The notes beneath the pieces were generated by a model, which had not been told where the DNA came from, did no database searches, and saw only the letters and a program-made list of their open reading frames with translations. Below are positions 8,781 to 64,000 of a stretch of 64,000 nt of DNA, one piece after another. Numbering within the stretch: position 1 is the first letter of the stretch; every line of letters starts with the position of its first letter. The position numbers and the translations under genes were made by a program. Origin of the DNA: Magnolia sinica (taxonomy: Eukaryota; Streptophyta; Magnoliopsida; Magnoliales; Magnoliaceae); the NCBI RefSeq assembly GCF_029962835.1, contig NC_080575.1, positions 42,570,336 through 42,634,335 on the forward strand. Reading direction: 5' to 3'.

Positions 8781-8789
8781 GCACATAGC

Positions 8790-9342
8790 GGGCGCGGATT
8801 AAATACTGACAATGTCAGTAGCCTAATGGCTACTGGAGTGACGTCACCAAGCTAGGTGGACCTCACCATGATGCATGTGTTGTATCCATACCATCAAACC
8901 ATTTGTACAGATGTTTTATGTCATTAGAGAAGAATGATATAGATCTAAAGTTCAAGTGGACCCACCATAGAAAACCGTGGGATCAATCAACCCACCGTTG
9001 AAACATTTATAGGGCTGACCATGATGTATTTTTTAGATCCAACCTATTCATAAATTAACATAGAGATAGATGAAGTGAAAACAAAAATATAAGCTTGATC
9101 GGAAACTTTTGTGGCCCCTAAGAAGTTTTGAACAGTAGATGTCACTGCTTCTACTGTTTTCTATGGTGAGGTCCAATTGAACTTTATATCTATCTCATTA
9201 TTTTATTATGCCATAAAACGATCTCTCGAAATTGATAGACGGTACGAGTATAACCCATGTATCATAGCGGGCCTACAGAGCTTGGTCACGTCACTTCAGT
9301 AGCGATTTGGATACTGACCTTGTCAGTATCTAATCCGCGCCC
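8790..9342. mobile_element. Mutator-like MITE with long TIRs and 9-bp TSD
   Basis: The left end reads GGGCGCGGATTAAATACTGA. The reverse complement of the right end reads GGGCGCGGATTAGATACTGA, and the match continues for about 65 bases through TGACGTCACCAAGCT / TGACGTGACCAAGCT. Flanks are GCACATAGC (8781-8789) and GCCCATAGC (9343-9351), 8 of 9 identical, the duplication length typical of Mutator-like elements. The 553-bp interior has no coding potential, so it is non-autonomous. Confidence 0.85.
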
Positions 9343-9384
9343 GCCCATAGCACACCAATTTCGTACAACCACAAGATTCTCCGG

Positions 9385-10386
9385 GGACGCGGATTTCCTG
9401 CGAATTCCTGCGCTCGGAACCAGGTGGGGCCCATTGTGATGATTTTGAGAAATCTTCTCTGTTCATACTTTTTTGAGTTCATTTCAAGACATGAGGCTAA
9501 AAAAGAACCGTACCCAATCCTCAAGTGAGCTGAAAATGTGAGAATTGAATTTCGACAGTTGAAATATTTGTGGGTTACAGTAGTTTTGAATCATTCTAAT
9601 ATTTGTTTTTTCAGTTCATCCCAGTACGAATGACGTTATTAACAGTATGGATGGCATGTAAACATCACTGTAGAACCCAAGGAGATTTCAACGGTAGGAA
9701 TTTCCCTAACCACCTTTTCATTTAGTACGGCCCACTTAGGTTGCAGATCCTGATCAATTTTGGTCTCATAGCTTAAAATGAGCTCACAAAACGGATGGAC
9801 ATAGTGGATTCTATACAAACATCACGGTGGCCCACCTAGTTCTCAGCACAGGAACTTCCTGCTAAAGGCTTCCGCAGGAAATCCACGTCCTTCCAGGATG
9901 TTCCTGTGCTGGGAATCCAGGTAGGGCCCACTGATGATTTTGAGAAATCCTCTCTGCCATAAGTCTTTTGAGTTTATTTAAGGACATGAGGCCAAAAATG
10001 AACCATACCCAATCCTCAAGTGGGCCGAAAATGTGAGAATTGAATTTAGACAGTTGAAATATTTGTGGGTCATAGAAGTTTTAAATCATGCTAATATTTG
10101 TTTTTTCGGCTCATCCCGGTAGGAATGACGTTATTAACGGTATGGATGGCATGTAAACATTACTATAGAACCCAGGGAGGTTTCAATGGTAGGAATTTTT
10201 CTAACCACCTTTTCATTTAGTACGGCCCACTTGGGTCGTGGATCCTGATCAATTTTCGCTCCTAGCATAAAATGAGCTCACAAAACGGATGGACAGAGTG
10301 GATTCCATACAAACATCAGGGTGGCCCCACCTTGGTTCCCAGCGCAGGAACTTCCTGCTAAAGGCTTCCGCAGGAAATCCGCGTCC
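9385..10386. mobile_element. Two tandem copies of a TIR element
   Basis: The outer ends are inverted: GGACGCGGATTTCCTGCG at 9385 and its complement ending at 10386. A second end (GGAAATCCACGTCC) closes the first unit at 9890, and a truncated start (TTCCTGTGCTGGGAATCC) opens the second at 9901. The two bodies align throughout with a period of about 494 bases. TIR lengths of about 60 bases suggest a Mutator-type MITE. No convincing target duplication is seen at the outer ends. Confidence 0.75.
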
Positions 10387-10813: not shown

Positions 10814-13800
10814 GTCTGTTCCTCATTCCTAATTACTTTAATTAAATAAAAATGCAACCAAAACCACATCTCCTTATAAGGGGTGACAATGGATCATGGG
10901 ACACGCTTTTCTTCTCTATTTTTGTTTTGGGTTTGGCTCAGGTCATCTGGCCCAACACATTGATAACTTATATGGGTGGGTAGGGTTGGATTGGGTCTGG
11001 TTGGATAGGACTCAATCCATGCCTGACCAATTTAAGGTCAGATTTTTAACCTGACAACCCACTCCCCATTGAGCTTGGCCCAAGCTCACCTCGTAATTTC
11101 CGCAGGCCGGCCAGACCCATTGCCACCCTTGCTTATTTCTATATTTTCTACCTGTTTTAGGAAAACAAGGCCGCTAAAACCATGCAGAAGAAACCTGCCG
11201 AGAACAAGCGACCGCAGCCGCCGAGCCGCGTAGAGCCCGCTCCAGATCTTACGGACTTCATGAATGATTGGTTCTTCGGGAGCGTGCCCGTGGACCCTAC
11301 AAGAACTTATAACTTGACAGGTGGACATTTGAACGAAGAAGAAGAAGAGGAAGGAGAAGATGATTATTACGAGGGGCCGAGGAGTGGCACCAGTAGTAAA
11401 CTAACTCAGGAGTGGCTTGAAGAAGCCAAACGCATGGTTGCTATGTCTCCCGGTCGGCATGAATCACCTTCTCGGCTCGTTGGTTCCCCTAGGTTCGCTG
11501 CAGCAAAAGCGAGCGCTTCATTGGCGTTCATTGAGCGGCGTGACCCGCTGTCAAGATCAGCGAGGAGGTACGTTTGGTAGACCGTGTTTCATGTGACTAG
11601 GTGCCATTGCTTGAGAGGATTACATGAACATTAGCTTGATGCATGCACCCATTCAATTCAGTGGAACCACGAGTTAGTTGTTCATCTATATTGAGAGGAT
11701 ATAAAGCCGCTTGTTCTCTCTAAAACATGAGAGAGTATATTTATATTCATATTCACTTTATAAAAATACAAATGTAAAATGGTCGCAGCCATATGCAATC
11801 TTGCTAAGGTTGCATGTCCTCAGTGCAACAAGCTAATGATCACCACAAAATGGGTCCACCACATTGAAGGTGGGGCCCACATGATGGGCAACCCACACCA
11901 AAGGTGTTCTTCACATGATGGGCAATTAATAATGGTGGGCCCAACATGATGGAAGATCCACATCAAGGTGCGCCCCACATGATGGACAGTCCACATCAAT
12001 GGTCAACCTAATGATGAGTGGCCCATATCCAAGACTGGTCCCACATCGGAGGTGGGCCCACATGATGGATGTTCCACATCAAGGGCACAACCATAAACTA
12101 AGAAGAATTAAAAAAACATACCTTTAACCTAAATCCACTTTTTCAAATAATTAAGAAAGTATCATCACACTATAGATGGGCCTACAATTAGTTTCATATA
12201 ATTTTAGACATTCTACTTGTGATTGGAAGGAGTGAAAACATAAGATTTTACTAATATTTGGAGTTCAGTGTGCAAATCCATAGGTTGTTTAGAATCTCTA
12301 AAACTTGAAATGACTTGACTAGCTGTATGGCTGGGTTGGGTTGACTCGTAGACTCAGGTTTGACTCAGTTGATATTTAAATATTAAATAAATTAGGTAAT
12401 GTAGCTGCTGGAGGAGAAGAGATCGCCTTCTTCTTCCCACGCAAGAGAAAATTAAAAATGAGAAATAATATTAGTATTATTAAATGAAGTGTTAATTACA
12501 ATGTTTTTGATGTGATTATATAAGCAAACACAATCCTAAATTACTAATTTATTTGGAAATAGAATATTTTTTTCCGATATAGTTAAAATTACTACAAATA
12601 TTAATAAGATGTCTAATTTTATCAAAACTTAGTAAACAACAGGTAGATAAGTAAAACAAAAACTTTGGATTACAACCATACTCTTAAAATCCTAAAAATA
12701 GAAAATGTAACATACTAAAAGTAGTACATTTTAACTTAAAACTCTAATTTAAAACTAGTAGCTTTTAACTTAAAATTCTAATTTGACTCCTCAAACAATT
12801 GAATTTTGTGAATTCATTTTGGGTGCCAATAAACCTTAGATTACTAATTTGACAGAAATAATAAAACTTACTAAAATATTAAAAAGATGTTTAGTCTTAC
12901 CAAAACTCGTAAACAACTCATAGATAACTAAAACAAAGATTTTGGACACAACCATCGTCCTAAAATTCTAAAAATAAAAATAAAAAAAACTTATAATTTC
13001 AATTTAATTAACTCCTAAAATGATAGAGTTTTACGAACCATTTTGGATGCTAACAAGCTTTAGATTTTGTCTAGGGCATAAAACTTATCGATAGCTTTCT
13101 AAAGGTATATTGTATATAAGAAAGGGTAACTAGTTGCAAAGTTATAATCATAGAATGCTATGATGTACATTTAGTTTATTTTTGTTCAATTAAAGCCCCT
13201 CTAGTTAGAATTTGGTCCACCTTCATCAGCTGTTGACTTGTTGTTTACCTGTCTTACATCACTAAGAACCCATTTGGATATTACCAAACAAGTAGTTTTT
13301 TAAACTTATGTAAGTTAATAAGTTACTTTTCTTAAATAAATTAATTTGGTTGTTAAACTTTAATATGTACTATTTTAGAAAATGCAACTTATTCAACTTA
13401 GTTTTATAAACTATTTTTTTTTTTTTTAATTGTTTTTTAACTTCTAGAAATAACTTATTTCATTCATTTTCATCAGTAATACAATAACTTAAGAAATTAT
13501 TTGAGGAAATATGCTCTTTGTGACCATAAACCCTTTCTAAGTTCATGAGATTGCAAAATCATCCCATAAATGGCTATATGATCTAGTGGCCCACATGATG
13601 ATGGCCCATATCGAGGTGGTCCCACATGATGGACAATCCACATCTAAGGTCCACCCCTAATGATGAATGCCCCACATCCAATGCAAGACCCGCATGATGC
13701 GCAATCCACATCAAAGGCAGGCTTCACATGATGGGCAATTAATAATGGTGGGCCCTACATGATGGATGATCTACATCAAGGTGGCCCCACATGATGGACA

Positions 13801-35037: not shown

Positions 35038-38000
35038 TTCTACACATCTTCAAGGTTCCATACCACCGAGCTTTTGATCCTCAATTTCTTCCCCAAATCG
35101 GAGATATGATCCACAAGCAATGACGAAGAGGTGCCGAAATCCACCATCCCTTACAGATCTGAAAAAAAAATAATCCAGAAATATCGATTTTCTATTTTTC
35201 TGAATAACTCAAGAACTCTTTGGGCTGGACAGGTTCTTGAACTGTATCGGCACTAATATCACCAATACAATCAAAACTTGGAATTTATACACAGTTTTCT
35301 AATGATATATTGGTGAAATATCAACATATCAATACCTAGTGATATATCGTTGATATTAGGAATTATCTGAACTAAATCTAAATGTGATATAGATATCAAT
35401 GAGGTAGCAATACCAATAATATCAGAGATGTTATTGATAATATTGGCGATACTCGGAACACTGCTCATAGCCGCTACCATAATGTGGCGGCATTTTTCAC
35501 ACGGAGCTCGAGTGGGATGCAGGGGCATACTCAGGGTGGGTGGCCCGCAGAACCCATGGATTTGTGGGGCCCATGAGGAGGGTTCGGCTGAGGATCTAAC
35601 CCATGGATTTGGGGCCTTGGCTATGAGATAAATGGATTAATTCGGCATACTCTATCAGTTCAAGCTTTTAGAGCAAGTGGTTAATTGTCTCGCATCAAAT
35701 TGGTTCTAGAGCGGGAGGTCTCGTGTTCAAAACTCCTCATCGAGGGTGATTAATGTGGGGGCATTTTCACACCGGGCTCGAGTTGGGTAGCTTGTGGGAT
35801 GCAGGGGCATACTCAGGGTGGGTTATCATGTGTGCATGAAGTCCCATCCTTGGTCCCTAACTGATTGTCATGTCACGGAGGTCTCCTCATTCGGTGACAC
35901 TGCTGGAAGTGAAATTCCACACATCAATAATTACTCCCTCGAATTGGGACCCCACGAACAAGAAAGCATCCAATGGATACTTCTCTTATAGCATGCTAGA
36001 TAGTCTTGCCTTAGAAAATTTTCATATACTCATGCACACTGCAGTAGCCACAACTTAGGCCACTGCGATTCATCAAACATCCACCATTGGGTTACCAGAT
36101 TATGTCTCTTCATGATCCCCAACACGATTTACACATTATACATTGCCTATATTATAGGATTAATTCAGTTTTTCCCTTTAAACTAAGGGTTTTCTTACGA
36201 GCTGTAATTGATGGCATTTGATATATGATGGATGGAAACGTAAAGTCCTACACGATCAATAAATTAAAACCCCTATAAGAGGGAAATTTGGTTTTTCTCT
36301 TTCTTCTATGACTAATTCATCAGATAGTAAGAAAACACAATTATTTTCCAAATTTCCCAAAGGGGATCCTTAAAGAGAAACTTGATCATCCATCTCAATG
36401 GATGGTGGGAGGACCACGATCATGGCTATAAAAGGATGCACACAGCTTCCCCCTGCCAGGGAGGTTTTCCCTAGACTCGAAGAACCACCTCTGGTTCCCT
36501 TTTATTCCTTTTGTGGATGTGCATATTTCGAGAGAGGGGTGAGTCGCACCTTGAGTTATTTTTGAAACTCTAGTAGGTGCAGCCTTGCACTCCTGTCTTC
36601 TGTATAGGACTGTCATTTCTGACATTCCTTGATCACTTTGTGCAATAGGGTGAAATCCTGATCAACATCTGATTTTATGTTTCTGCACTTCATCTAATCT
36701 CTGGGCCTAACTATAAAGTGGTCAGTAAGACTGCAACATCTTCAGATAACTTCACTGATTGCAACATCATGCACTGTCTTCAATCCTAGGCCTGACCGTA
36801 GGCTTCCAAAGTGTAACGTCTTGCAGTGTCTTCATTCATGGATCTAGCAATAGGCTTCTAGAGTGTAGCATCTTGCACTATGTTTTCACCTATGGGCCTA
36901 ACCGCACACTTCCAAAGTGCGAAATCTCGCACTTGTCTTCATTCAGGGCCTAACCCTGGGCTTCTAGAGTGTAACATCTTGCACTCTGTCTTCATTCATG
37001 GTCCCAACCCTAGGCTTCTAAAGTGTAACATCTTCCAATCTCTCTTCATTTCCGAACCTTAACCCTCAGCTTCCAGAGTGCAGCATGTTGCACTCTATCT
37101 TCATTCATGGTACAAACCCCAGGCTTCCAGAGTGCAACATCTTGCATTACTCTTCATTCCTCAGGGCCCAACCCCAGGATTCTAGAGTGCAACATCTTGC
37201 ACAGTCTTTATCTGTGACCCACCCAACCCATCTTCTAGCATCTTCATTCCTGTGCCCAACCTATGCTTCTAGAGTGTGAAATCTTGTGCTCTATCTTCAT
37301 TCTTAGGCCCAAACCTAAGCTTATGTTCATTCTTAGCCCAACCCAAGGCTTCAAGACACCGTCTTTTGACAGCTACTTCCACTTCTCCTTTACTCCATGC
37401 ACGGACATTGATGAAGGATCGATACATGAATTAAGTAACATGTGAGATCAGATAACCAAATTAAGATATCTAACAAAAAAAACACAAACGTCACTATATT
37501 CATCACACATATCATGAAAATCAAAAGAAAATCATGCATAATCATGTCCTAAGCTACGAACATCGTAACATAAGATCATTAAATAAAACGAAACTATGAT
37601 CTAATGGATGTAGGGACATCCAATTAGCATAAGATATAGTCTATTTCAAAATAGGAAACCTAATACAACCTAGGGTGAAAATTAGGGTTTGGGTAATTTG
37701 GAGAAAGTTAGGGATTTTAGGTTTAGGGTCAGGGTCTCGGGGATGGAAGAATGAGGTTTGATATAATGATGGTGGGAAGCCAAAAGGACCAGGTGAGAAT
37801 CACACGTGGCTTTACGGTCACACGAGTGGCGTGGGAGGATGGGTTTAGGGCGGTTAGGGTTTGGTTTGTGGATGGGTATGAGAAAGTTGGGTTTGGGAGA
37901 AAACGAAGATTTGAGATGAGACAAATAAGAACCTGAAGAGAATACTTGGATGAGGAAGAAAAATGAAGACGGTGTGGGGATAGATGGAGACCTTGTACCT

Positions 38001-41000
38001 CCGTTGATGAAGATTAGCCTCGCACCAATCTTCCTTCCAAATTGCATGGAAGTATCTTCAAATCGCATGAAGATGGGAGAAGAAAGCAAGAGCTTTTTTT
38101 AAAAAAAATTTATTTTTTAATCACGAAATTTAATTAGGGAGAGGTCACACGCTCTCCTCTTTTTATAGATCTAAGAAGTTTCAAAAATTACTAAAATCCC
38201 CGTCTTGTGAGCTTTAACGAAAATAGCCCTAGTCTAAATAAAATCAACTAAAACACCCATAATGTGTCCAAATATAAAATAATCAAAAACTAAATCCTAA
38301 AATATGATAAAGTCTAAAACTGATGTGGACGATCAATGATCAATGACCTGATCATGTGATCCATGCGATCTAATGGCCCAATCGTTGCGTCCCTCCGATC
38401 TAATGGTCTGGATCACTCCATAAAGCAGCCCATGTGCATCTTCTCAGTGTGGGGTCTTTCAGATGCTCACACATGCACATGGGGTCTTCAGCAAGATCAC
38501 GGGCACTCGCTTAGCCACAGGGAAAGTAGTGTGGCCCGTCTCCTCCTCTGATACGTACGTAAGGGTGTACGTGACGTGATGTCCTTATCAATTCTCTTCG
38601 ACTGAGAAGAGTTCGCCTTTGGCGGACTAAAACTCCTGTAGTGCTCCAAAATGTCTGGATCTAAATGTTGTAGCTCGTCCCTTGTAATCCACGTACTGTT
38701 GGAGATCGGCTCGTGCTTTCGCTTGACAAGGAATTTTTGAAATCCTCCATGTCAAGTGGAAACTGCTTGTGTATCCAGTATGTCTTCTATCTGTTCGCTT
38801 CGAGTAGGCAAGGAAAGTAAAGGTGGTTATGGCTCTAATGATTGGTCAGGTAAGGGTCATGGATTTGGTACTAGGTCACGATCTGTGGGAGAGTCTGTGG
38901 ATGGATCAATAGGTGAAGTAGTAGATCCCTTGTATAGTACTAGATCTTCCACATTAAAAGTAGAACTAATTCCCATGCTAGGTGGAAGGTCTACTTCATA
39001 TGCATTAAGACGCAGTTTCTGCATTATTTTGTATAGTCCTGCGCTATGTGCTTGTAACTTTTTAATGGCCCCATGTGGGAACCGCTCAGGCCTCATGCGA
39101 ACCATGACATAATCTCCTACTTAGAATTCATGAAACCTGCGATGAGAATCAGCAAACGCTTTGTATTTTTCATTATTTACATTAATTCGCTTCCTAACCT
39201 CACTATGCAACTCATGTATATGACGTTCAAACTCATGTGCGGACTCAAATGACCTATGAGACACATGCATAGGTATGAGATCTACAGGTTTCCTAGGTTT
39301 GTAGCCATGCACAACCTCAAATGGACTCATGCCTATGGATCTATTGATGGAACTATTGTATGCTAACTCGGCTATAGGCAAAACGGTATCCCAAGTTCGA
39401 TCGTGATCACCAACAAGACATCTAAACAGATTTCCAAGACTCCTATTGACAACTTCAGTTTGACTGTCTGTCTGAGGATGATAGGCAGATGAAAATTGAA
39501 GCCTTGTCCCCATCATGTGCCATAGTGTCTTCCAAAAATTGCTCATAAAGCGCACATCACGATCAGACACTATGGTCTTAGGTAGACCATGTAAACGCAC
39601 TACCTTCCCAAAGAAAAGCTTAGCCACATTGGAGGCATTCGACGTTTTCAAGCACGGAATGAAATGGGCTATTTTGGAAAAACGGTCCACAACCACGAAT
39701 ACGGAATCGTGTTTCTTGATAGTTTTCGATAAGCCCAACACGAAATCCATACTAATATCTTGCCACGAAGCATGGGGTACTAACAAAGGTGTATACAATC
39801 TTATATTTTGCTTCCTCTGCTTTGCCAGTTGACGAGTCTTGCATTGCCCAACAATCTTGGCTACATCTCGCTTGAGACTTGGCCAATAAAATCTATCCTC
39901 CACAAGGGCAATGGTCTTGTCCCTCCCCAAACGACTAACTATCCCTCCTGCATGAAGTTCCTAAACTAGGAAATCACGGAGGGAGGTACGAGGAATGCAA
40001 AGTCTGTCACCTTTAAATAGGAATTCATCGATGATGACAAATCTAGGACTATCAATCGACTGACCATCTCGTAGTGATGCATATAAATCTCCAAAATCTA
40101 GGCATGTAGGATACTCCTCTCTTAGTCGATCAAACCCAACCACTTCTACTCTCATACTTTGGAGAAGCGTCACTTGATGAGTAAGGGCATTAGCAGGTTT
40201 GTTCTCGACCCCAGCCTTATGTTTAAGAACGAAAGAGTATTCTTGAAGAAATTAGACCCATTTAGCATGCCTAGGGTTTAGTTTCTTCTGGGAACTGAGG
40301 TAACATAAGGCCTCGTGATCAGAGAACAAGACAAATTCTTGTGGTAATAAATAATGCCGCCAATGGCGCAAGGATTGGACGACTGCATAGAAGTCTTTGT
40401 CATAGGTGGAATATCGTTGTTTTGCCTCATTCAACTTCTCACTAAAATAAGCAACAAGGTGCCCTTCCTGACTAAGCACACCACCTATACCTACCCCAAA
40501 TGCGTCACATGCGTCCTCAGAGACTTTAGAAAACTCTGGAAGGCGCATGATGGGGGCTTCACTCATCTTGCCCTTAATCTCCTTAAAAGCTTTAGAGACA
40601 GCTGTAGTCCATACAAACTCCCCTTTCTTGATGCAATCCGTGATGGGAGCCATAATGGAGCTAAATTCTCTAATGAACTGCCTATAAAAAGTTGTCAAGC
40701 CATGAAAGCTTTGCACCTCATAAATATTGTGCGGTTCAAGCCATTCAACTATGGCACAGACTTTCTCGGGGTCCGCTCTCATGCCCTCAGATGATGTGAT
40801 GAACCCTAGAAATATAACGCTCTTTGACATAAATGTACACTTCTTAAGGTTAACATATAGCTTTTTAGTTCTGAGGACCTCGAAAACTTGCCTCAGATGG
40901 TGGAGGTGTTGTTCCTTTGATGTGCTATAGATAAGAATGTCATCAAAATACACCACAAGGAACTTACCCATGAATGGTCTCAACACCTGGGTCATCACTC

Positions 41001-44000
41001 TCATAAATGTGCTCGGGGGCGTTAGTCAAGCCAAAGGGCATGATTGGCCATTCTTATAGCCCATCCTTCATCTTGAAGGCTGTCTTCCACTCATCTCTTA
41101 GGCATATACGTATTTGGTGATACCCGCTCTTGAGGTCAATCTTCGAAAAGATTGTGGCACCCTCTATTTTGTCTAACATATCATAAAGACGCAGTATGGG
41201 AAACCAGTACTTGATTGTGATTTTATTAATGGCTTGACTGTCCACACACATGCGCCATGTACCATCTTTCTTGGGCGTGAGAAGCGCTGGCACGGCACAC
41301 GGACTCATACTCTCCTGAATGAAACCTTTTCTGAGGAGCTCATCTACTTGCCTCTTCAACTCCGCATGCTCCGTAGGGTTCATTCGATAATGAGGAAGGT
41401 TTAGTAGAGTTGACCCAGGAATAAGATCAATGGCATGCTAGATGTTTCTCATGGGTGGAAGTTCATTTGGTAAGTCCTCTGGAAATACATCGTGAAACTC
41501 ATCCATAATTGGCTTCACCTTAAGGGGTCCCTCTACACTAACCTCGAGTGTAATTTCTCTCGCCACTAAGGCGTACACCATTGAATCCACTATAGTCTCT
41601 CTCTCAAACTCCTTGGCGTTGATCACATGGAGAGACTTAGGTTGGTATTTCCTCGTATCCCTTGGGTTACCCGACTTCCGTTCAGTTTTCTTATCCGCAT
41701 TGCTTTTTGGTGGGAAAGAAACTAGAGATATCTTTTTGCCTTGATTTATGAATGAACATACATTTGAGCGGCCGTATATCGTCACATCATGGTCAAATAG
41801 CCAAGGCCGTCCTAAAATGATGTGTCCAACGTCCATAAGTAAGACATCGCACCACAACGAATCTGAATAGGATCTAAAATTAACAGGCAGGAGATCACTG
41901 GGTAACAGGTATGGAAGATGCATCCGCCCATGACACTATAGGGCTGAATGTGCGGTTCAGGTTTTAACCCCAAACGAGACAAAGTGCTAGTGGAGACCAC
42001 ATTGGTACAATTGCTACTATCGACGATCACCTTGCAATTCTTCTCTCCACATTTTGCATATGTGTAAAATATCGTAGTTCGACGCCAATCATCATTCTCC
42101 TTAGCATTGGTCAAGGCGCACCTGACTACTGCAAGTGGTGTGGTCTCTTCTCCTTCTACTTCTTTATCACTAACACCATTGATGTTGGGCTGATAAAATT
42201 CTTCTTCAAGATCACCCTGTTCATCTCCTTCTTTCTCACCATCATCAATTACCGGGGTTTTGTTCCTCTCTTTTGATGGACATTGATGCGCATAGTGACC
42301 AATCCCATGGCAATTGAGGCATTGCGTTTGCTCACCTCCCCTAAAGCTAGCACTCGTTATCCCCTTTCCTTTGACATCTCTAGGGTTGGGTTAGGATTCA
42401 GTTTGGGGCTTAGACTGATTTCCCATGTTAGGCTTACCCCCTTGAGAGTAAGTCTTGACACTTGGATCCCGAGTGTCATAACGCTTACCAACTAGTGCCT
42501 TGAGGTAGTGTTCAATGTCTTGCACCACTTGGTACATGTGCTTTAATGTACTAACATCACAAGAATAAAGTTCTTGTTGGATATCAAATCGGAGGCCCAT
42601 CCTGAATCTGGACAATGTAACCATCGGGTCCTCCTTAATGTCACATCGCATCATGTACTCTTCAAACTAAGTGATGTAATCTAGAACGATCATGGATCCC
42701 TGGCGCAAAGCCTGCCACTTTTGGTCTAGGAGCCTCTGACGATAAGAAAGAGGGAGCTACTTTTCTTTAAGGACCTCTTTCGTCTCGGCCCAATGCACAA
42801 CTGTGAGCTCTCCTTTCCTTTCAATTTTACGCTCTATGTTGGTCCAAAAAAGTTTGGCTTGGCCCACCAACTTCATCTTGGCAAATCTTACTTGACGGGT
42901 ATCAGACATATCATACCACTCAAAATAGTGGTTCATGCCTGCCAACCAATTAAGGAATGCTTTGGGGTCCAATCGACCATCAAAATTGGGGGCATCAACT
43001 TCCACACCTTTCATGACTTGTGCATCTGGATCATAACGCTCATAACGCTCCTTACGTGGTGGCAGCACATGTGCTCGACCACGGTTAACGCCTTGGCCAC
43101 GATCATTCTCCCGCCTATCAACTTGATTTCCAGCCTGAGATTGAACGTCATCCCTAGTGTCGGGGTTTGCTTATAAGGAGGCCTCAAGTTGATTGACGCA
43201 CGCATTGGTTGCGGTTAATTGAGTGACAGTGGTTCTATTGTGCGCTTCAATGGTCATCAAATGGTTATTGATAGCATTAAGAGCCTCGACAATCTGCTCC
43301 AGATTCATATTAAGATGTAAACCAAAACCACGCCCTGAACGAGTGGGTATACACGAGGAAATTCTAAAAGGAAACCCTAGATGTAACTCTAACCTAGATG
43401 TGACACAAAAATCCTATATGGCCTAGATCTATATGGGGACTCAACAAAACCTAGAAAAAGGGCTGACTAACTCAACGAAATGTCCCCTTCGTAGAGCTAG
43501 TCACGCGGGGGTTGCAGGGGGCGGCGCACCCCTACCCAGGGTTTGGGGCGGAGCGCCTGAAACGTAAACGATTTTTAAATTTTAGATAAAGTGTTTCTAT
43601 ATAAAATTTTCACCACAAAGATGGATTGACAATAACTTGACATACGCTAAAACTGTGCTCTGATACCAAATTTGATGCAGGACCGATGCATGAATTAAGT
43701 AACATGTGAGATCAAATAACCGAATTAAGATATTTAACAAAAAATCACAAACGTCACTATATTCATCACAAATATCATGAAAATCAAAAGAAAATCATGC
43801 ATAATCCTGGCCTAAGCTACGAACATCGTAACATAAGATCATTAAATAAAACGAAACTAGGATCTAATGAATGTAGAGACATCTAATTAACATAGGATAT
43901 AGTCTATTTCAAAATAGGAAACCTAATACAAACTAGGGTGAAAATTAGGGTTTGGGTAATTTGGGGAACGTTAGGGATTTTAGGTTTAGGGTTAGGGTTT

Positions 44001-47000
44001 CGGGGATGGAAGAATGGGGTTTGATATAATGACGATAGGAAGCCAAAAGGAGTAGGTGGGATTCACACATGTGGTCATACGGTCACACGTGTGGTGTGGG
44101 AGGATGGGTTTAGGGCGGTTAGGGTTTGATTTGTGGATGGGTATGAGAAAGTTGTGTTTTGGAGAAAACGGAGATTTAGGATGGAAGAATTAAGAACCTG
44201 AAGAAAATACTTGGATGAGGAAGAAAAATGAAGACGGTGTGGGGATAGATGGAAACCTCGCACCTCCGTTGATGAAGATTAGCTTCGAACCAATCTTCTT
44301 TTCAAATCGCATAAAAGTATCTTCAAATCGCATGAAGATGGGAGAAGAAAGCAAGATTTTTTTATTTTTTATTTTTTATTTTTTTATTTTTTAAATCATG
44401 AAATTTAATGAGGGAGAGGTCACACGCCCTCCTCTTTTTTATAGATCCAAAAAGTTTCAAATTTTACAAAAATCCCCGTCTTGTGAGCTTTAACGAAAAT
44501 AGCCCTAGTCTAAATAAAATCAACTAAAACATCCATAATGTGTCCAAATATAAAATAATCAAAAACTAAATCCTAAAATATGATAAAGTCTAAAACTGAT
44601 GTGGACGATCAATGATCAATGACCCGATCATGTGATCCATGTGATCCAATGGCCCGATCGTCACGTCCCTCCGATCCAACGGTCTGGATCACTCCTTAAA
44701 GCAGCTCATGTGCATCTTCCCAGTATGGGGTCTTCCAGATGCTCGCACATGCACATGGGGTCTTCAGCACGATCACGGGTACTCACCTAGCCATAGGGAA
44801 AGTGGTGCGGCCCGCCTCCTCCTCTGATACGTACGTAAGGGTGTATGTGACGTGATGTCCTCATCAGATCTATTTGCTTTGAGAGAGCTGTGAACAACAA
44901 AATATTTCTCCAATAAAGAGAGTATCAAACTAATAGTGAAAAGGAAGGACAAGAAGAAAAGTATGGAGGAAAAGGAGAAGGAGAAAGAAAAGTGTCAACT
45001 GAATAGCAGGTAGTAGTTGGTATACAAACTTCTCTAGGATAAGTACCACTTGAACAATGGATAATAGTTCTAGAGGAAATAAAATGGCACCTTGTTGGAA
45101 AACAGCCCCGATATCTTTCAGGATAACCCCCTTGACGTATTTAGTTACCTAAACCAAGTCGAAAACTGCCCTTGTAGGAAGAAAGACTCTTGCTTGACAT
45201 TCAACCTATGGAATTGTTAAAGAATGGAACAAATCTCATCCTATTTTGGCCCTCCCGTATCCAGCAAGTCATGCAGGAGCCCCTTATGGGCTGTTGACAT
45301 TTTCAAAACTCTCTCAAAACTAATTATCAAGCTTCGAAGGCTCCTAAGCTGGCTAATAAGCACTCTCATATTTGATGCCGACGTGGGGTCCACCTTAAAC
45401 TAGTAACAACTTGGAAATTAGTCCAATCTATTCATCAAGAGCTTAGCAGCTTTAAGAACCTGCTATTTTTATTTTTTTTTAATTTTTTTATTTTTAAAGA
45501 AATAGAAAAAAAAGAAAAGAAAAGAAAAGAAAAGAAAAGAAGGGCCTCGTTAGGCTTATTGCATGGCATATATGCATGTGAGATCCATTTGAATAGGTTA
45601 GAAAGCCTAGCATTTGAGTTTCTTTCCTCTTTTTGGGTCCTTGTACACGTCATATCTGTTTATTGGGACCCATGTTGAACTACATCACTTATGATTTGAT
45701 ATATCATCACTTGCATGATAGCCATCCATAGGGGTATACAAACGTATGAGGGTTAACCCCAATACAAATGTGCCACAGTCATCCTGATTCCCGATTGCTA
45801 ATGGGCAGCAAACATAGTAAACTTGGTGAAAATAAAAGTGCCTTTGAAAATTAGGGACCACTATCTGTTAGTGACTATTCAATTTTCCTAGAACATGTTA
45901 ATAGGAAAGAGTCATTTTTCATTTTGCTGCAAGTGTTTCTTAATTTCTCTTAGCGACTATAAATAATCATCTAATTTATTTCTTTCGGAATTTCATTTAG
46001 GAGCTTTTAGACCTCTTGTTTCTTTAAAGCTTATGTTATATTTACTAAGGGCCTTTTTGGTAGATGCCTTGAATTGAGTTCATCTCATTTAAACCATAAT
46101 TATGTTTTAGAGATATTCTTTGTTGGTTATCTCAATTATTTTTAGCCTTTACCAAGAAACAAAGTAATGATCTCTAATGCATTATTGCAACCAACTGAAA
46201 TGAAATGAACATGTTTTTAGGCGTCTACCACACAGGCCCAAGGTAAGAACTGCATCCAAACAATGTTGCTCATTCAAACTTTCATTTATTTTTTGATATA
46301 ATCATGCAGAGGTTTCTGATATTTGGAGATGAAATGTAATTCTGCTTTTTTCATTGGGTTGTTCAAAGTATTAGCAAATGCTTATTTAAAGTTAACTTGG
46401 TTCCTATTTTGATAGGTGACGATGAGAATGAAGCACCTACGGAGCATAGGGTTCCAGTGAGAAAGTCAACCTCCAGTCCACAGCAAGACATCAACACAAG
46501 AGCTTCTAATATAATCCCAACTGATACAGAGAACATAAAGATCCAGGCAGTTTCACCAAAATCAGGTAATTAGCATAATTCATGGAAGCTTCATAGATTG
46601 GTAGAGTGTGGTTACTGTGGTAATTCAACTAGCTGCAACATACACTATGGATTTAGTTTTTAGTTACTAGAATGGTTTTCTAGGACTTCTCATATAATGA
46701 TGTTATAGAAGCAGCAGTAATACTTTTTGCTCACCATGTTATGCCAATGTTATTCTCCATATTGCTAGATTAAATCAGAAGAGGGCTGAGGGTGAGAAGT
46801 GGAAACAGAAGGTAGATAATAACCTATTTAAAGATCTAAAGCTTCCAACAATCTTGAGATTCTTAGGCAGGGAATCCTCTGATCCTCATGGACAACATCT
46901 CAGGTTGATGACTTATGCATCTATGTAGGGGACATCCATTCGGTATTATAATAACTAATGAATAGGATTATGTGAGAATAAGAGTAAATTGGATTTCAAT

Positions 47001-51323: not shown

Positions 51324-52199
51324 TGTTATGGGTGAAACTGGTCTGACTCGGACTCACGAGTACATGCTTCTGAACCAAGGGGATCCTAAACAACAGTCTC
51401 AGATCGTTTTGGGGAAGAGTAGGCACTAGACTCCCGAGCCTAATCCTCGGCACCGTATATCTCTGAGCTTCAACCAAGCTTATTTGTACATCTCCGAGCT
51501 TCGACCAAGCTTATCTGTACATCTCCGAGTTTCGACCAGGCTTATCTGATCTCCAATAGATGTCTGGATGTATATGACCAGAAGACAACCAGAAGACTAA
51601 TCGGCTTGGGGAAATCAAGGGGATGGTCCATCGAGAACGGTAAGTGTTGCCAAGGAGGTGGATCCACTCCCTATGCCCAAAGCACAGACAAATCTAGGAA
51701 TTGATTAGTCGACTAGTGATGATCAGTGCAGAAAGTCACTTCGAGCTGATTGTGGAGATCAGCCCGATTAATCGATGGCTCAGCTTGCCTTGGCCCCATC
51801 TTAATTGATTGAGGGTTTAGCTCAGGTCAATATCAACTAATCAAGGGCATATATCAGGTTGGCCTCGACCACTCGTTGCATGATTCTAAGGTCAATTACA
51901 TCAACACTTATCACCTACACAAATCTCGCATAACGGTTAAGAAACTTATGCAAAGATTATGCCTAAGATCAAGAACCGCCTCTAGCCCACCTACACTATA
52001 AATAAGGGGCCCATCTACGTGAAAAGGTACACAGAATCTCTCACCCAAAACCCCTCAATATTACTAGACCCATATTCCTAGATTGACTTTGGCATCAGGG
52101 GGTCCCTTGCTCTAGCTAGGGTCTCCTTTGTCTTCTTCCTATGCCGGTGCTTGAAGGTTTAGTAGTTTAGTGAGGGTGAACCGGATTTTTGCATCAACA
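51324..52199 (+). repeat. 5' LTR of element 3
   Basis: 876 bp, TGTTATGGG...GCATCAACA. TATA box CTATAAATAAGG at 51996. The first ~300 bases recur at 63689-64000. A short unit (TACATCTCCGAGCTTCGACC, AAGCTTATCTG) repeats three times near 51460-51550 in both LTRs. Confidence 0.85.
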
Positions 52200-54599: not shown

Positions 54600-55330
54600 G
54601 TCCACAAATTGAATGTGAACCCGATCATAGACCAGTAAGACAAAAGGGACGAGCTTTCGAGCCAGAGCGGTATGTCGTTATTGCAGAAGAGGTCGGAAAA
54701 CTTTTGGATGTAGGGTTCATTGAGGAGATCTGTTACCCGACTGGATCGCTAATGTCGTCCTTATGAAGAAGCTTAATGGAAAATGGCAAGTTTGTGTTGA
54801 TTACACGACCTGAACAAAGCCTGCCCCAAGGACATCTTTCCTCTTCCTAGGATCGACCAGCTAGCCGACAGTATGGTGGGGCATGAACTCCGAAGCTTCA
54901 TGGACGAATATTCAGGCTATAATCAGATAGCCATGCACCAGCACGATAAGCTGAAGACGACCTTCGTTACTGACAAAGTACTCTATTACTACAAGGTTGC
55001 CCTTTGGACTGAAGAACACTGGGGCGACATATTAGCAACTTGTGAACAAAATGTTCGCTTAACAGATCGGATGTTCTATGGAGGTTTACGTCGATGATAT
55101 GCTTGTGAAAAGCATCAAATCTGTCGACCACATCATTGACCTTGAAGAAATGTTCTCAATTCTGCGACAGTATCAAATAAAGCGAAACCTGGCCAAGTGT
55201 GCATTTGGGGTCTGCTCGGGGAAATTCCTTGGGTTCTTGGTTAACCAGAGAGGAATCGAAGGGTCGTCGCCCTCAATCGCTTCGTATCCAGAGCAACCAA
55301 AAAGTGCCTCCCCTTTTTCCACAGCTGAAG
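54600..55330 (+). pseudogene. Tat-type reverse transcriptase
   Basis: WQVCVDYT near 54785, PLPRIDQLADSMVGHELRSF, MDEYSGYNQIAMHQHDKLKT (motif A with its Asp), then a damaged PFGL segment, EVYVDDMLVKSIKSVDHIID (YxDD intact) and KCAFGVCSGKFLGFLVNQRG. At least three frameshifts. Confidence 0.8.
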
Positions 55331-55760
55331 GGTAATAAGAAGGTAGAGTGGACTGAGGACTGTGAACAAGCATTCCAGTGGATGAAGCGATACCTAGGAT
55401 CACCTCTGCTACTCTCGAATCTTGAGCATGGAGAACCCTTGCTAGTATACATGGTAGTCTTAGCAGAAACAATCAGCTCAGCCCTTATCAGAGAAACCAG
55501 GGGAAAATAACTCTCTATATATTACATCAGTAAAGCCTTGGTTCCCATCGAGACCAGGTATCCGGACGTAGAGAAGCTCGCCTTAACCTTGGTAATCTCA
55601 TCTGGACGTCTTTACCCATACTTCCAAGCCCACACAATAATAGTCCGAACTAATCAACCCCTCCGTTAAGTGCTTCAGTGGCCTGAGGTGTCGAGAAGAC
55701 TCACGAAATGGTCAATCGAGCTTAGCAAATTTGATATCAGATATTAGTCAAGGAATGCCA
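55331..55760 (+). pseudogene. RNase H of the RT (first RNase H)
   Basis: QAFQWMKRYLGSPLLLSNLE, PLLVYMVVLAETISSALIRE, then after a stop YYISKALVPIETRYPDVEKL and ALTLVISSGRLYPYFQAHTI. It is the usual RNase H region of gypsy pol; the first catalytic Asp position (LYLAVS/LYLDAS) reads VYMVVL and looks inactive. Confidence 0.75.
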
Positions 55761-58135: not shown

Positions 58136-59119
58136 ATTTAGTCTGCTCTAGGAGGAGGCTACTCAGCTTCGGCTTCAGACTGCGAGGGCCCCTCCGAGGC
58201 TTCGTCATTGAAGAGGGCGTCCAAATTCAGTTTAGGGTACAATCACCTGACGTCCTCAACACAACGGTCATAGCCGCAGTTGTAAAGTACGTTCACCTCG
58301 TCAATTCTTTCCTTCGAGGATTTGTATTCCTCTATGGCTATAGCCTTAATTGATGGGATGGTTGCCTCGGACTCAGATTGCTAGGCGGCCAAAAGTCTTC
58401 TCGACTTCATCTAACTTAGCCACTGAGCTCGCTTTTACTCTCTAGCTCCGCCTCCAGCCCTGTAACATCAGCTTCGACAGATGAGAGGTGCGCCTTCACC
58501 CTCTATAGTTCAGCCTTAGTAGAGTTAAGGTGGGACTTCATCCCTTCAAGCTCGACTATCACCAAGCTCTCCTTGTGTCGGGCCTCATCCAACAGGATCT
58601 TCAGAGCATCTCGTTCCTCCCCAGCATACTTCAAAGCCCCCCTTAGGGACTTAGCCTCTACCACCCCCTCCTAAAGACCCATACTAAGGGCCTCGACCTC
58701 AACGGTCTTCTCCTCGAGCGTCACCTCAGCTCGCTCGCACTTGTTAGCTACTTGCCTCACCTTTTGGAGGGTGGTTAACAATGCAGGGACGAGCTGGACA
58801 CAAAGGAAATAAGTTAACGGAATAAAATAGGGAATGGAAATGATGTCAGTAAAAGGGTGTACCTTGTAGCAGAGCGTGGCAACGTCAATGAAGAAGGCCT
58901 CCGGATGGGAATCTATCAGGTCGACAATCTCTTCCTTTGAAACGTGTTCGCCGCCCAGTTAGTCAGTTGAGACATATGATGACCTTGCGAGTATGTCCTT
59001 GCCTCCTCAACAGCCCGGGGACTCGAAGCCTCGCTCCTTTCGGCACCGGCCGGTGTCGCCAAAGAATCAGTCTCCTCGGTCGTCGAAAGCCCCGCTCCCT
59101 CGGTGACATGGGCAGTTTC

Positions 59120-60961
59120 TATAACGGTCCAATCAGCACTGTACGATAATGTCCACTGGATCTGCACAGTTTTGTTCTAGGGGTCACCCCCAAAAGGCCT
59201 CGTACAATATAGGGTGACAACCCCACATATAACCATCACAACTTTCGACAACTCTTACGATGTAGGACAAGGTTTCACCTCTCACTTGGTACACAGTACC
59301 CTGCTAGCCACTGGTAGCTCGTCCAGACTCTCAGGTCTACATCAGCGCCCGCCCACATCTGACCACAGTGACGGGGTGTCAAAATATCCCCCACCAACAG
59401 TAGAGTCGTCCTCGGCTCTGATACCATTTGTAACAGCCCACGCCTACACTGTATGATATTGTCCGCTCTAGGTTCCACTGGACCCGCACTGTTTTGTTCT
59501 CGGGGTCGCCCCCAAAAGGTCTCGTACAAGGAAGGTCCGAACCACACATATAACCACTATAGCTTCAGACGACGCGTCCGATGTGGGACAAGGTTCCACC
59601 CCACTGCCAACACAGTAGCATGCCAACCACTGGCAGCTCACTCAGGCCCTCAGACCCCGCCTACATCAGCGTCGCCCACATGTGCTACAGTGACGGGGCG
59701 TCACAATATCCCCCACCGAGGGCAGAGTCGTCCTCGGCTCTAATACCATTTGTAATGGTCCGACCAGCACTGTACGATATTGTTCGCTCTAGGTCCCATT
59801 GGACCCGCACGGTTTTGTTCTTGGGATTGCCGCCAAAAGGCCTCATACAGTATAGGGTGACAATCCCACATATAACCATCACAACTTCCGACAACTCTTC
59901 CGATGTGGGACAAGGTTCCACCTCTCACTAGGTACACAGTAGCTTGCTAGCCACTGGTAGCTCGCCCAGACCCTCAGGTCTTGCCCACATGTGATCACAG
60001 TGATGGGGTGTAACAATATCCCCCACCGAGGGCAGAGCCGTCCTCGACTCTGATACCATTTATAATGGTTCGACCAGCATTGTACGATATTGTCCACTCT
60101 GGGTCCCACTGGACCCGCAGGTTTTATTCTCGGGGTCGACCCTAAAAGTTCTCATACAAGGAAGGTTTGAACCACACATATAACCAGTACAACTTCAAAC
60201 GACGCTTCCGATATGGGACAAGGTTCCACCCCACTGCCAACACAGTAGCCTGCCAACCACTAGTAGCTTGCTCAGGCCCTCAGGCCCCACCCACATCAGC
60301 GTCCACCCACATGTACTACAGTGACGGGGCGTCACAATATCCCCACTGAGGGCAGAGTCGTCCTCGGCTCTGATACCATTTGTAAGGCCCGACCCAACAG
60401 CACAAGATATTGTCCACTTTGCTGAAGCTCACGTGTTTAAAACGCGTCTTGACTATTAAGGAAGGAGCCCACTTATAGCCACCACAACTCCAAATAGGTC
60501 TTTCGATGTGGGAGAAGGTTTCACCTCTTATTGGGTACACAGTAGCCCGCCAACCACTGGTAGCTCGCCCAGACCCTCGGGTCCTGCCCACATCAGTGCC
60601 TGCCCGCATGTGGCCACAGTGACGGGGCGTCACAATATCCACCCACTGAGGGCATAACCGTCCTTTGCTCTGATATTATTTGTAAGGGTTTGACCAGCAC
60701 TGTAGAATATTGTCAGCTCTGGGTCCCATTGGACCCGCACGATTTTATTCTTGAGGTCGCCCCCAAAAGGCCTCGTACAATATAGGGTGACAACCCCACA
60801 TATAAGCATCACAACTTCCGACAACTCTTCCGATGTGGGATAAGGTTCCACCTCTCACTAGGTACACAGTAACCTGCCAGCCACTAGTAGCTTGCCCAGA
60901 CCCTTAGGTCCTGCCCACATCAGCGCCCGCCCACATGTGACCACAGTGACGGGGCATCACA
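59120..60961 (-). mobile_element. TRIM concatemer: six LTRs, five internal domains
   Basis: LTRs: 59120-59383, 59429-59705, 59751-60015, 60061-60336, 60381-60634, 60681-60961 (254-281 bp). On the minus strand each runs TGTGACGCCCC to about TTACA. Between them are 44-46-bp internal domains: two bases, TGGTATCAGAGC (initiator tRNA-Met PBS), CGAGGACGACTCTGCC, and a purine tract CTCGGTGGGGGATAT. GTTTC flanks the whole array (59115-59119 and 60962-60966), so it counts as one insertion. LTRs 1, 3 and 6 are one type (ACAATATAGGGTGACA); 2 and 4 another (ACAAGGAAGGTYYGAACC); 5 is the most divergent. It interrupts the antisense ORF of element 3. Confidence 0.9.
59384..59428 (-). promoter_or_regulatory. 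TRIM internal domain 1 (PBS and PPT only)
   Basis: 45 bp. On the minus strand TGGTATCAGAGC (59426-59415) lies two bases from LTR 2 and a purine tract abuts LTR 1. The same layout recurs at 59706-59750, 60016-60060, 60337-60380 and 60635-60680, with one to three substitutions in the PBS of some units. Confidence 0.85.
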
Positions 60962-62099
60962 GTTTCACCCATGGATATGGCTTCAACCTCATCAGCCACA
61001 TGGATGGCCTTAGCGTCATCAACCGTACGGATCTCAGGAGCAACAAGCACCTCCTCCAGATCCAATTCTACCACCTCCACGGCACTCGGCTATGAAGAGG
61101 CAATTGGGGAAGGAGCCTCTCTCTCGCCCACCTTGACTAGAACCGGCTGGCTCACAAAGGGTTGCTTGACGCTAGCCCCCGACCTCACCTCCGCTGCGGA
61201 AGTGAGTATTTGTGTGATAGAGGGGACTGCTACCTTCTTCTTAGCAACGGTCTTCTTTTTCACCATCTCCTCCATGGGAGGAGGGCACTTCCTTTTCACT
61301 CACTTCTGAACCTCGTCCATGCCTCCACCAAAAACTTTTTAAGTTAGCTAAATGCTAGCGCCGAGCTGAAACAACATTGGTAAATTGACGACCTGCCACT
61401 TACCAAAAGAAGTAGAGGCAAAACCATGAAAGAAGATTGCTTGTTGAGGAGGAGTCGATTGACAGAGCTCAGTTATGTAGAGCAGGTCTAGGTGATAAGA
61501 GTATTCCAACTGCGAAAGTTGTCCTTCAAAAGTTTTCGCCTTGTCCCCTTGCTTGCTAAGGGGGTCAAACAGCTCAGGATGGCCCTTAAAAAAACTACAA
61601 AAATAAATAAGCAGTAAGATCATTGAGAAACTAGAAGACTCAAAAAAGAAAATTTAAGTACTATACCGCAGCGGTACCCGACTTAGAGTGCCAAACTTGG
61701 TGGGAACCCTAACTCATAGATGAGCCAGCTCGACAGCAGGCGCCTTCCACTCTCCTGATGCCTAGAACCACTTATTCTTCCAATCCTTCTTGGAGGTCAG
61801 GAGATTGATGATGAGGCCCCGACCTTTGTTCACCCATGCTGAAAAGTAGTACTAGCACGACTGCACGGGATTGTGCTTGACCTGGTATAGATACATAAAT
61901 TCCTCAAGCGTCATCTCATTGTTCTGGAGCTCAAACTAGAGGATATATGTTTCGAGAAGCACCCTCCACGCGTTTGGGATAAGTTGACTCGGGGCCAACC
62001 TCAGACAAGTTGTCATGGCCCTCACAAACGGGTGGAGCGAAAATCGGAGTCTGCACTGGTAAGCGGGAGAAGAGACTCCACACGCGATTCCTCTGTGGC

Positions 62100-63688: not shown

Positions 63689-64000
63689 TGTTACGGTTGA
63701 AAATGGTCTGACCACCCATGGGGTCAGCTCAGACTCACGAGTACATGCTTCTGAACCAAGGGGCTCCTAAACAACTGTCTCAGATCGTTCTGGGGAAGAG
63801 TAAGTGCTAGACACCTGAGCTTAGTCCTCGGCATCGTATATCTTCGAGCTTCAACCAAGCTTATTTGTACATTTCCGAGCTTCGACCAAGCTTATCTGTA
63901 CATCTCTGAGCTTCGACTAAGCTTATTTGATCTCCAAGAGATGTCTGGATGTATATGACCAGAAGACGACCAAAAGACTAATCGGCTCGGCAAAATCAAG
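63689..64000 (+). repeat. 3' LTR of element 3, partial
   Basis: It starts TGTTACGGTTGAAAATGG and aligns with 51324-51625, including the three TACATYTCCGAGCTTCGAC units. It has a short extra segment near 63712-63730 (CACCCATGGGGTCAGCTC) absent from the 5' LTR. The window edge cuts it. Confidence 0.85.

Follow-up and report, generated by a model that had tools for sequence, protein, structure and literature searches.

How do six LTRs come to lie in tandem within one target site duplication (TSD)? A preliminary description of a 64,000-nucleotide stretch of Magnolia sinica DNA, the whole of which we call the window, reported such an array of TRIM units and offered two answers: a multimer integrated as such, or one TRIM inserted and later expanded by unequal exchange between its LTRs.

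Anatomy and target site of the array

Re-annotation returned the coordinates and composition first reported, with six LTRs (254 to 281 bp) and five internal domains (44 to 46 bp) standing head to tail on the minus strand at 59120-60961. Read in the direction of the element, the 5'-terminal LTR1 (60681-60961) is followed by internal domain 1 (60635-60680, 46 bp), LTR2 (60381-60634), internal domain 2 (60337-60380, 44 bp), LTR3 (60061-60336), internal domain 3 (60016-60060, 45 bp), LTR4 (59751-60015), internal domain 4 (59706-59750, 45 bp), LTR5 (59429-59705), internal domain 5 (59384-59428, 45 bp), and the 3'-terminal LTR6 (59120-59383). All five internal domains open with AA and a PBS and close with a purine tract and ATAT. 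Compared with TGGTATCAGAGC, which we take to be a tRNA-iMet-type PBS, the primer sites of domains 1 to 5 have two, zero, one, one, and zero mismatches, in agreement with the original reading of the units as TRIMs primed in this way. The array begins with TGTGATG and ends with TTATA, and TA terminates both LTR3 and LTR6. A conserved hairpin in the internal domain was considered and rejected: 479 of 539 cells were paired, but 44 of 500 shuffles equaled that.

The array structure was read from assembled sequence. An assembly artifact is nevertheless hardly credible, since the six LTRs differ by 12 to 32%, which makes collapse or false expansion unlikely, and the LTR edges are clean and accompanied by a TSD.

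GTTTC borders the array on its low side (59115-59119) and its high side (60962-60966), and the match between the two flanks extends no further. The high-side flank gave at least 42 matches to the host element, itself included (40 of 350 candidates scored). Seven host paralogs whose match ran as far as the insertion site were chosen for inspection. The site was empty in all seven and held a single copy of the 5-mer, reading GTTTC in four and a variant differing by one or two letters in three. When the flanks of the array are joined, an antisense frame stays open for 108 codons. Because all seven inspected paralogs are empty with one GTTTC-like copy, the net event at this site was one insertion, as had been proposed. 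An alternative is that separate neighboring insertions were fused by LTR recombination that deleted the DNA between them, a published route to three-LTR structures (PMC7215508; here and below, most papers are cited from the parts of their text available). At this locus it is very unlikely: the two outer 5-mers are a perfect match, and all seven paralogs show uninterrupted flanks, so that the site lacks no host DNA.

The first host LTR lies at 51347-52199, with boundaries taken from the BLAST alignment, and its BLAST partner at 63728-64000 runs past the window end (both plus strand); the pair is 89.6% identical over 853 bp (p-distance, 0.103). A PBS-like sequence, TTTGGCGCCG, follows the first LTR on the plus strand. 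A reverse transcriptase piece at 55063-55332 (plus strand) matched RVT_1 with 30.7 bits against a cutoff of 29.6, an RNase H match stayed under its cutoff, and four host open reading frames within 53-59 kb gave no Pfam match. From the LTRs, TTTGGCGCCG, the RVT_1 piece, and the sub-cutoff RNase H match we infer a Ty3/gypsy-type element on the plus strand; a minus-strand host was ruled out, as reverse transcriptase and PBS-like sequence both lie on the plus strand.

The window holds other repeats as well. Direct repeats at 37408-38598 and 43672-44874 (90.5% identical) flank minus-strand reverse transcriptase and integrase pieces and, judged by this arrangement, are another LTR element. The stretch 8788-9344 aligns with its own reverse complement (71% identity in 568 columns), and 9405-9890 and 9901-10386 form a tandem duplication of ∼490 bp (88.6% identical).

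Subfamilies, timing, and origin

The TRIM family of the array is abundant in the 1.84-Gb M. sinica genome. Searching with the whole array gave at least 67 matches (40 of 2,225 candidates scored); among the 40 scored, the best other match was 74% identical, and none was a sibling array with its units in the order seen in the window. We scanned 60 loci (duplicates L002 to L008 and L013 omitted), selected by likeness to the window array, of which 55 yielded elements, and annotated 63 elements. A perfect 5-bp TSD was present in 26 of these (21 two-LTR elements, 4 three-LTR elements, and the window array), and 12 more had a TSD with one mismatch, two of them with poor edge scores. Swapping the 3' flanks between elements in 10 rounds gave 0 or 1 perfect TSDs against the 26 real ones and the insertion site was empty in 7 of 7 paralogs, so the GTTTC duplication around the window array is not due to chance. 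Both two-LTR TRIMs and further arrays with one TSD exist in the genome. At least three LTRs were found in 19 of the 63 elements, a share biased upward by the likeness-based choice of loci, and many of these 19 arrays have no TSD.

The internal domain is exactly 45 bp long in 77 of 90 cases across the family, and the shortness pointed out in the preliminary description is thus a family trait. The PBS lies within three mismatches of TGGTATCAGAGCC in 76 of the 77 45-bp domains, which had originally been located by a PBS-like motif. A printed internal-domain length is 122 bp, for FRetro129 (PMC3281118). Searching viral contigs for relatives of the family with two patterns gave no match. At L026 (C9:18721300-18726200) we observed a long array of the same family with LTR matches oppositely oriented in its halves; the unit-by-unit analysis left out this locus and L010, L017, L018, L019, L035, L046, and L062, all among the arrays that have no TSD.

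By subfamily, the LTRs of the window array follow the order A-C-B-A-B-A, with A at both termini. LTR1, LTR4, and LTR6 (A by U3) differ pairwise by 0.117 to 0.140, the terminal pair by 0.140, and LTR3 and LTR5 (B) by 0.138. Distances between A and B LTRs are 0.18 to 0.22, and LTR2 (C) is about 0.28 to 0.32 from all others; its 3' part is the most distinct, at 0.40 to 0.47 from the other five in columns 201-282. Fifteen sites, all within columns 20-191, separate LTRs 1, 2, 4, and 6 from 3 and 5, and the next patterns have four sites each. For five of the six LTRs, the closest array member stands two or three places off, so the notion that neighbors within the array might be closest fails for all except LTR2, which is itself almost equidistant from LTR1 (0.276) and LTR4 (0.282).

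The U3 and U5 trees comprised 96 LTRs, 6 from the window and 90 of the 96 annotated elsewhere (6 were removed by edge and length filters), and the whole-LTR tree comprised 99 with looser edges. The whole-LTR tree groups LTR1, LTR4, and LTR6 (support, 0.86) and makes LTR3 and LTR5 sisters (0.96). In the U3 tree, LTR1, LTR4, and LTR6 fall together (0.64) and join L021, L025, L060, and L046 at 0.94, LTR3 and LTR5 are sisters (0.95) within the B group, and LTR2 belongs to the C group (inner node, 0.84; wider node, 0.99). The U5 tree likewise assigns LTR2 to C (0.96). It places the other five array LTRs in a mixed group, which contains most B elements as well as L051, L053, and one LTR each from L025 and L064, and the U5s of the array's A units stand apart from those of L021 and L060. 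On these trees, the A units of the array are chimeric, A in U3 and unlike A and B-like in U5, which indicates that mixing by recombination happened at some stage. Relatives of A, B, and C each occur elsewhere as separate two-LTR TRIMs, C for example at L029 and L031, with the A likeness confined to U3. The nearest genome copies compared are 0.145 and up from the array LTRs, only slightly beyond the within-array distances, and closer relatives may exist.

We compared these distances with the divergence of the host. Bootstrap intervals of the differences between the same-type pairs at 0.117, 0.129, and 0.138 and the terminal pair include zero. Between the same-type pairs and the host LTR pair over 853 bp, the difference is not significant (Fisher p, 0.12 to 0.57). 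The four cross-type pairs tested against the host pair over 853 bp are all higher (p, 1e-3 to 1e-13). When the 273-bp part of the host pair serves as the reference, a significant difference is seen for each of the 11 cross-type pairs (p ≤ 0.0043) and for none of the 4 same-type pairs. Among 29 two-LTR elements with a TSD, the median distance within LTR pairs is 0.108, and only L042 (0.285) and L048 (0.208) exceed 0.163. Because cross-type distances exceed the host LTR divergence, the subfamily mixture was, by this measure, present at insertion or brought in from outside, and decay in place was not its source. The argument takes the host to have been in place before the array, with which the seven empty paralogs agree, although they are no proof for the host copy in the window.

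The simplest account of a tandem array, and one that a single enclosing TSD would suit, is that a TRIM with identical LTRs grew solely through unequal exchange between its own LTRs, the second answer of the preliminary description. We consider this very unlikely, since the array holds three LTR subfamilies whose relatives occur elsewhere as separate two-LTR TRIMs. Its cross-type distances of 0.18 to 0.32 compare with a host divergence of 0.103, LTR2 is set far apart in columns 201-282, and every B and C difference would have to be a gene conversion tract.

We instead favor, with moderate confidence, the view that a heteromeric TRIM multimer integrated once into an antisense-ORF region of the Ty3/gypsy-type host. 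Read-through or template-switched TRIM RNA with a unit of ∼310 bp would have drawn on the RNAs of several subfamilies, and the enzymes of an autonomous element would have copied this mixed RNA into one multimeric cDNA. Reverse transcription would make the two outer LTRs alike while the inner LTRs retained their own types, and integrase would have inserted the cDNA, generating the 5-bp duplication. A leaky end signal, be it the conserved T4 described below or another, could account for the frequent arrays in the family. Such an origin fits the single TSD, the like terminal LTRs, the clean junctions between LTRs and internal domains, and the equal ages of same-type pairs. The multimer proposed earlier is thus the better fit to three subfamilies in one TSD but is unproven, because early recombination with foreign units would look similar.

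Other elements of the family bear on this question in both directions. On another chromosome, L009 is a five-LTR array with the order a-b-a-b-a, in which 14 sites separate LTRs 2 and 4 from 3 and 5 and 7 sites have other patterns; the truncated LTR1 sides with 3 and 5 at 6 of the 14 sites and is missing at the other 8. Same-type distances in L009 are 0.063 to 0.082 and cross-type distances 0.106 to 0.137. Its alternation supports multimer integration; the absence of a TSD, which we looked for at L009, counts against it. Order alone is weak evidence, as like neighbors are absent from 10 of the 60 possible arrangements of AAABBC. In L012 (C-B-C by U3; TSD with one mismatch), the outer LTRs are 0.138 apart and 0.305 and 0.322 from the middle one, and this likeness of the outer LTRs also speaks for a multimer. 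Mixing is not the rule, given LTR pair distances of 0.043 to 0.175 in the three-LTR arrays L014, L015, L022, and L030. Integration of a mixed multimer must further contend with the third template that the C unit requires, with the lack of a same-order sibling array among the 40 scored of 2,225 candidates, with genome copies almost as close to the array LTRs as these are to one another, and with the chimerism of the A units. It must also contend with L042 (C6:47523700-47525100): this two-LTR TRIM combines a C and a B LTR, 0.285 apart, within a perfect TSD (ATACA), which shows that a foreign LTR can enter other than by plain reverse transcription. L025 too has unlike LTRs, and LTR mosaics are widespread in the family. 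The left-right correlation of distance matrices dips at columns ∼110-160 and not at R (∼186-197), with the same outcome for all 46 loci and for the 28 non-C loci separately. Strand transfer at R (ping-pong) as the source of the mosaics is therefore unsupported, and the missing dip at R is a further point against the multimer.

The main rival to multimer integration is the capture of foreign units by recombination: an A-type TRIM would have come first, its LTRs, once in place, would soon have gained B and C units by homologous recombination with cDNA circles of TRIMs or with other copies, and the B-A pair would have been doubled through unequal exchange offset by two units. Both outer LTRs are A, as expected from a resident element, within one TSD, and like-with-like pairing would preserve the alternation. 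For several TRIM arrays, published work invokes recombination between elements or LTRs (PMC4528315, PMC7215508), and the chimeric A units, the unlike LTRs in L042 and L025, and the widespread mosaics accord with it. Kalendar et al., who suggest for Cassandra both template switching and transcripts joined in concatemers, argue that ectopic exchange should leave differing units and report none such in Cassandra (PMC7215508); the units of the window array differ, which on that argument favors exchange with other copies. However, none of the array's same-type pairs is clearly younger than its two terminal LTRs, LTR2 is C by U3 and U5 alike, and alternation with equal same-type distances is seen again in L009. 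We regard this rival as a real but distinctly less likely explanation.

A U6-like layout in the LTRs

All six array LTRs contain RTCCCACATCG followed by TATA exactly 26 nt on, with 0 mismatches in three and 1 in three. The USE-like motif of LTR1, ATCCCACATCG, lies at 60831-60841 (minus strand); from LTR1 to LTR6, the USE starts at 60841, 60514, 60219, 59911, 59589, and 59268. Among the USE-like sites of the window with up to two mismatches, USE-26-TATA pairs were found only in these six LTRs. An exact USE motif at 12038 (plus strand), beside a GGTGGGCCCACATGATGG-type repeat, has no TATA within the next 49 nt. Across the family, 85 of 96 LTRs have a USE (up to one mismatch) with TATA at 26 nt, and 88 of 96 have TTTT 35 to 36 nt past TATA, the most conserved block measured; a stretch near column 245 equals the USE in conservation. 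The length of the USE-TATA stretch is kept in 0.969 of LTRs, ranking 2 of 241 stretches. Depletion of TTTT was rejected as proof of Pol III. In 91 LTRs, which are related and not independent, TTTT other than the conserved T4 occurs 8 times against 25.6 in shuffles, but GGGG is also low (158 against 266 expected), and AAAA (89 against 63.7) and CCCC are high.

As a control from the same genome, we read 12 U6 loci (of 47 matches) and 12 U2 loci (of 46 matches). A USE with up to two mismatches was present at 11 of the 12 U6 loci, with the start 53 to 55 nt after it in 10 and 58 nt in one, and a literal TATA stood 25 to 26 nt from the USE in 4 of the 11. Two U2 loci have both a USE (up to one mismatch) and a canonical start, which lies 66 nt past the USE; L087, with a USE-like site but no canonical start, was omitted. 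Promoters of 70 bp taken from U6 and U3 genes of several dicots were active in planta, and they tolerated changes outside USE and TATA (PMC12268498).

Pol III transcription from this layout is possible. We tentatively suggest that the TRIM LTRs are transcribed from a type 3 (U6-like) promoter, starting ∼53 to 55 nt past the USE like U6, with the conserved T4 lying 6 to 9 nt after the start, read past in the 5' LTR, and terminating transcription in the 3' LTR, although we think this less likely than not to prove correct. If so, TRIMs with a type 3 promoter would join those of type 1 (5S) and type 2 (tRNA), so that all three Pol III classes were represented, and leaky read-through of T4 would produce multimer RNAs.

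The same layout is widespread: a genome-wide count of GTCCCACATCG-N26-TATA gave 1,694 occurrences, and that of the reversed pattern gave 1. Judged by eye, the spacers belong to several unrelated families, among them several LTR families, and the 100 places listed include 10 pairs 5.1 to 5.6 kb apart. The gap between USE and TATA among 100 matches listed is 26 nt in 53, 24 nt in 19 (mostly TATATA sites already counted at 26 nt), and at least 34 nt in 2. One example, L102 (C1:82654600-82660900), is a Ty1/copia element with gag, pre-integrase, and reverse transcriptase matches; USE-26-TATA is present in both its LTRs, where TTTTT follows the USE at 63 nt. This coding element has 53 TTTT on the sense strand of its 6,301-bp stretch, which makes Pol III reading of the whole element unlikely and weakens Pol III as the plain answer for the LTR promoter. 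USE-26-TATA may instead serve LTRs in general as a promoter for another polymerase.

In barley, the RNA that BARE packages is exclusively uncapped and non-polyadenylated and is made from its own TATA1, and the terms "pol III" and "polymerase III" are absent from the paper describing this (PMC3735527). A snRNA-class promoter for packaging RNA is thus conceivable, and such promoters in copia LTRs could be a source of the uncapped, non-polyadenylated RNA packaged by copia particles. If the U6-like layout drives transcription, it would offer a testable source for BARE-type packaged RNA. We found no paper on the USE in plant LTRs in the literature searched, which covered few subscription journals.

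Relation to known tandem arrays

No 5S rRNA match, the hallmark of Cassandra, and no tRNA-derived match, that of Helenus, was found in 58500-61500 at E values up to 5, and membership in either was ruled out because both are absent. The array nevertheless belongs to a known kind, since tandem TRIM arrays with a TSD have already been published. In TA-TRIMs (Gao et al. 2016, PMC4717578), as here, at least three LTRs alternate with internal regions in one TSD; examples include L5I4 in maize, and 129 subfamilies were reported in 35 of 43 genomes. In these terms, the window array is an L6I5, with at least three LTRs and at least two internal regions in tandem, PBS and PPT, a unit below 1,500 bp, a 45-bp internal domain too small for coding, and a TSD in the 4- to 6-bp range (GTTTC on both sides), and other complete genome copies (21 two-LTR, 4 three-LTR) bear different TSDs. 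The tandem-array section of that paper describes no mixing of subfamilies, whereas three are present here. Wukong in maize (PMC4528315) has intact elements with three, four, six, and seven LTRs, similar to our array, with TSDs on most multi-LTR elements and none on others; these are attributed to recombination between intact elements, and the available text does not mention subfamily alternation.

Cassandra arrays (Kalendar et al. 2020, PMC7215508) are likewise tandem, with up to 12 repeats and a very small internal domain, and their Pol III promoter lies within the LTR, whereas the U6-like layout of the window LTRs is a candidate promoter. Unlike the window array, they consist of nearly identical units with 5S rRNA in the LTR, and the available text mentions no TSD, such as the GTTTC found here. 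Tandem LTR retrotransposons in rice (Morales-Diaz et al. 2025, PMC11899658) share an internal LTR within one TSD and are argued to stem from one insertion, with LTRs 85 to 89% alike at the described locus; these are gypsy- or copia-sized elements, two per tandem at that locus. TRIMp3 elements, that is, Cassandra, Helenus, and Ajax (Kojima 2024, PMC10886601), carry in their LTR a Pol III promoter, either proven or expected, and have a short internal domain (85 bp in Helenus-1_SMo, compared with 45 bp in the window family); their promoters derive from 5S or tRNA genes, in contrast to the U6-like layout of the candidate promoter here.

We found no description of a mixed, alternating TRIM array in the literature searched. 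In the available text, work on tandem TRIM and LTR arrays leaves undecided whether multimers integrate or arrays grow in place (PMC11899658, PMC7215508). A mixed array carries internal markers for this question, since its subfamily order, the identity of its terminal LTRs, and the age of its host can be compared, and with two alternating arrays in the same genome, testing it across the family becomes practical.
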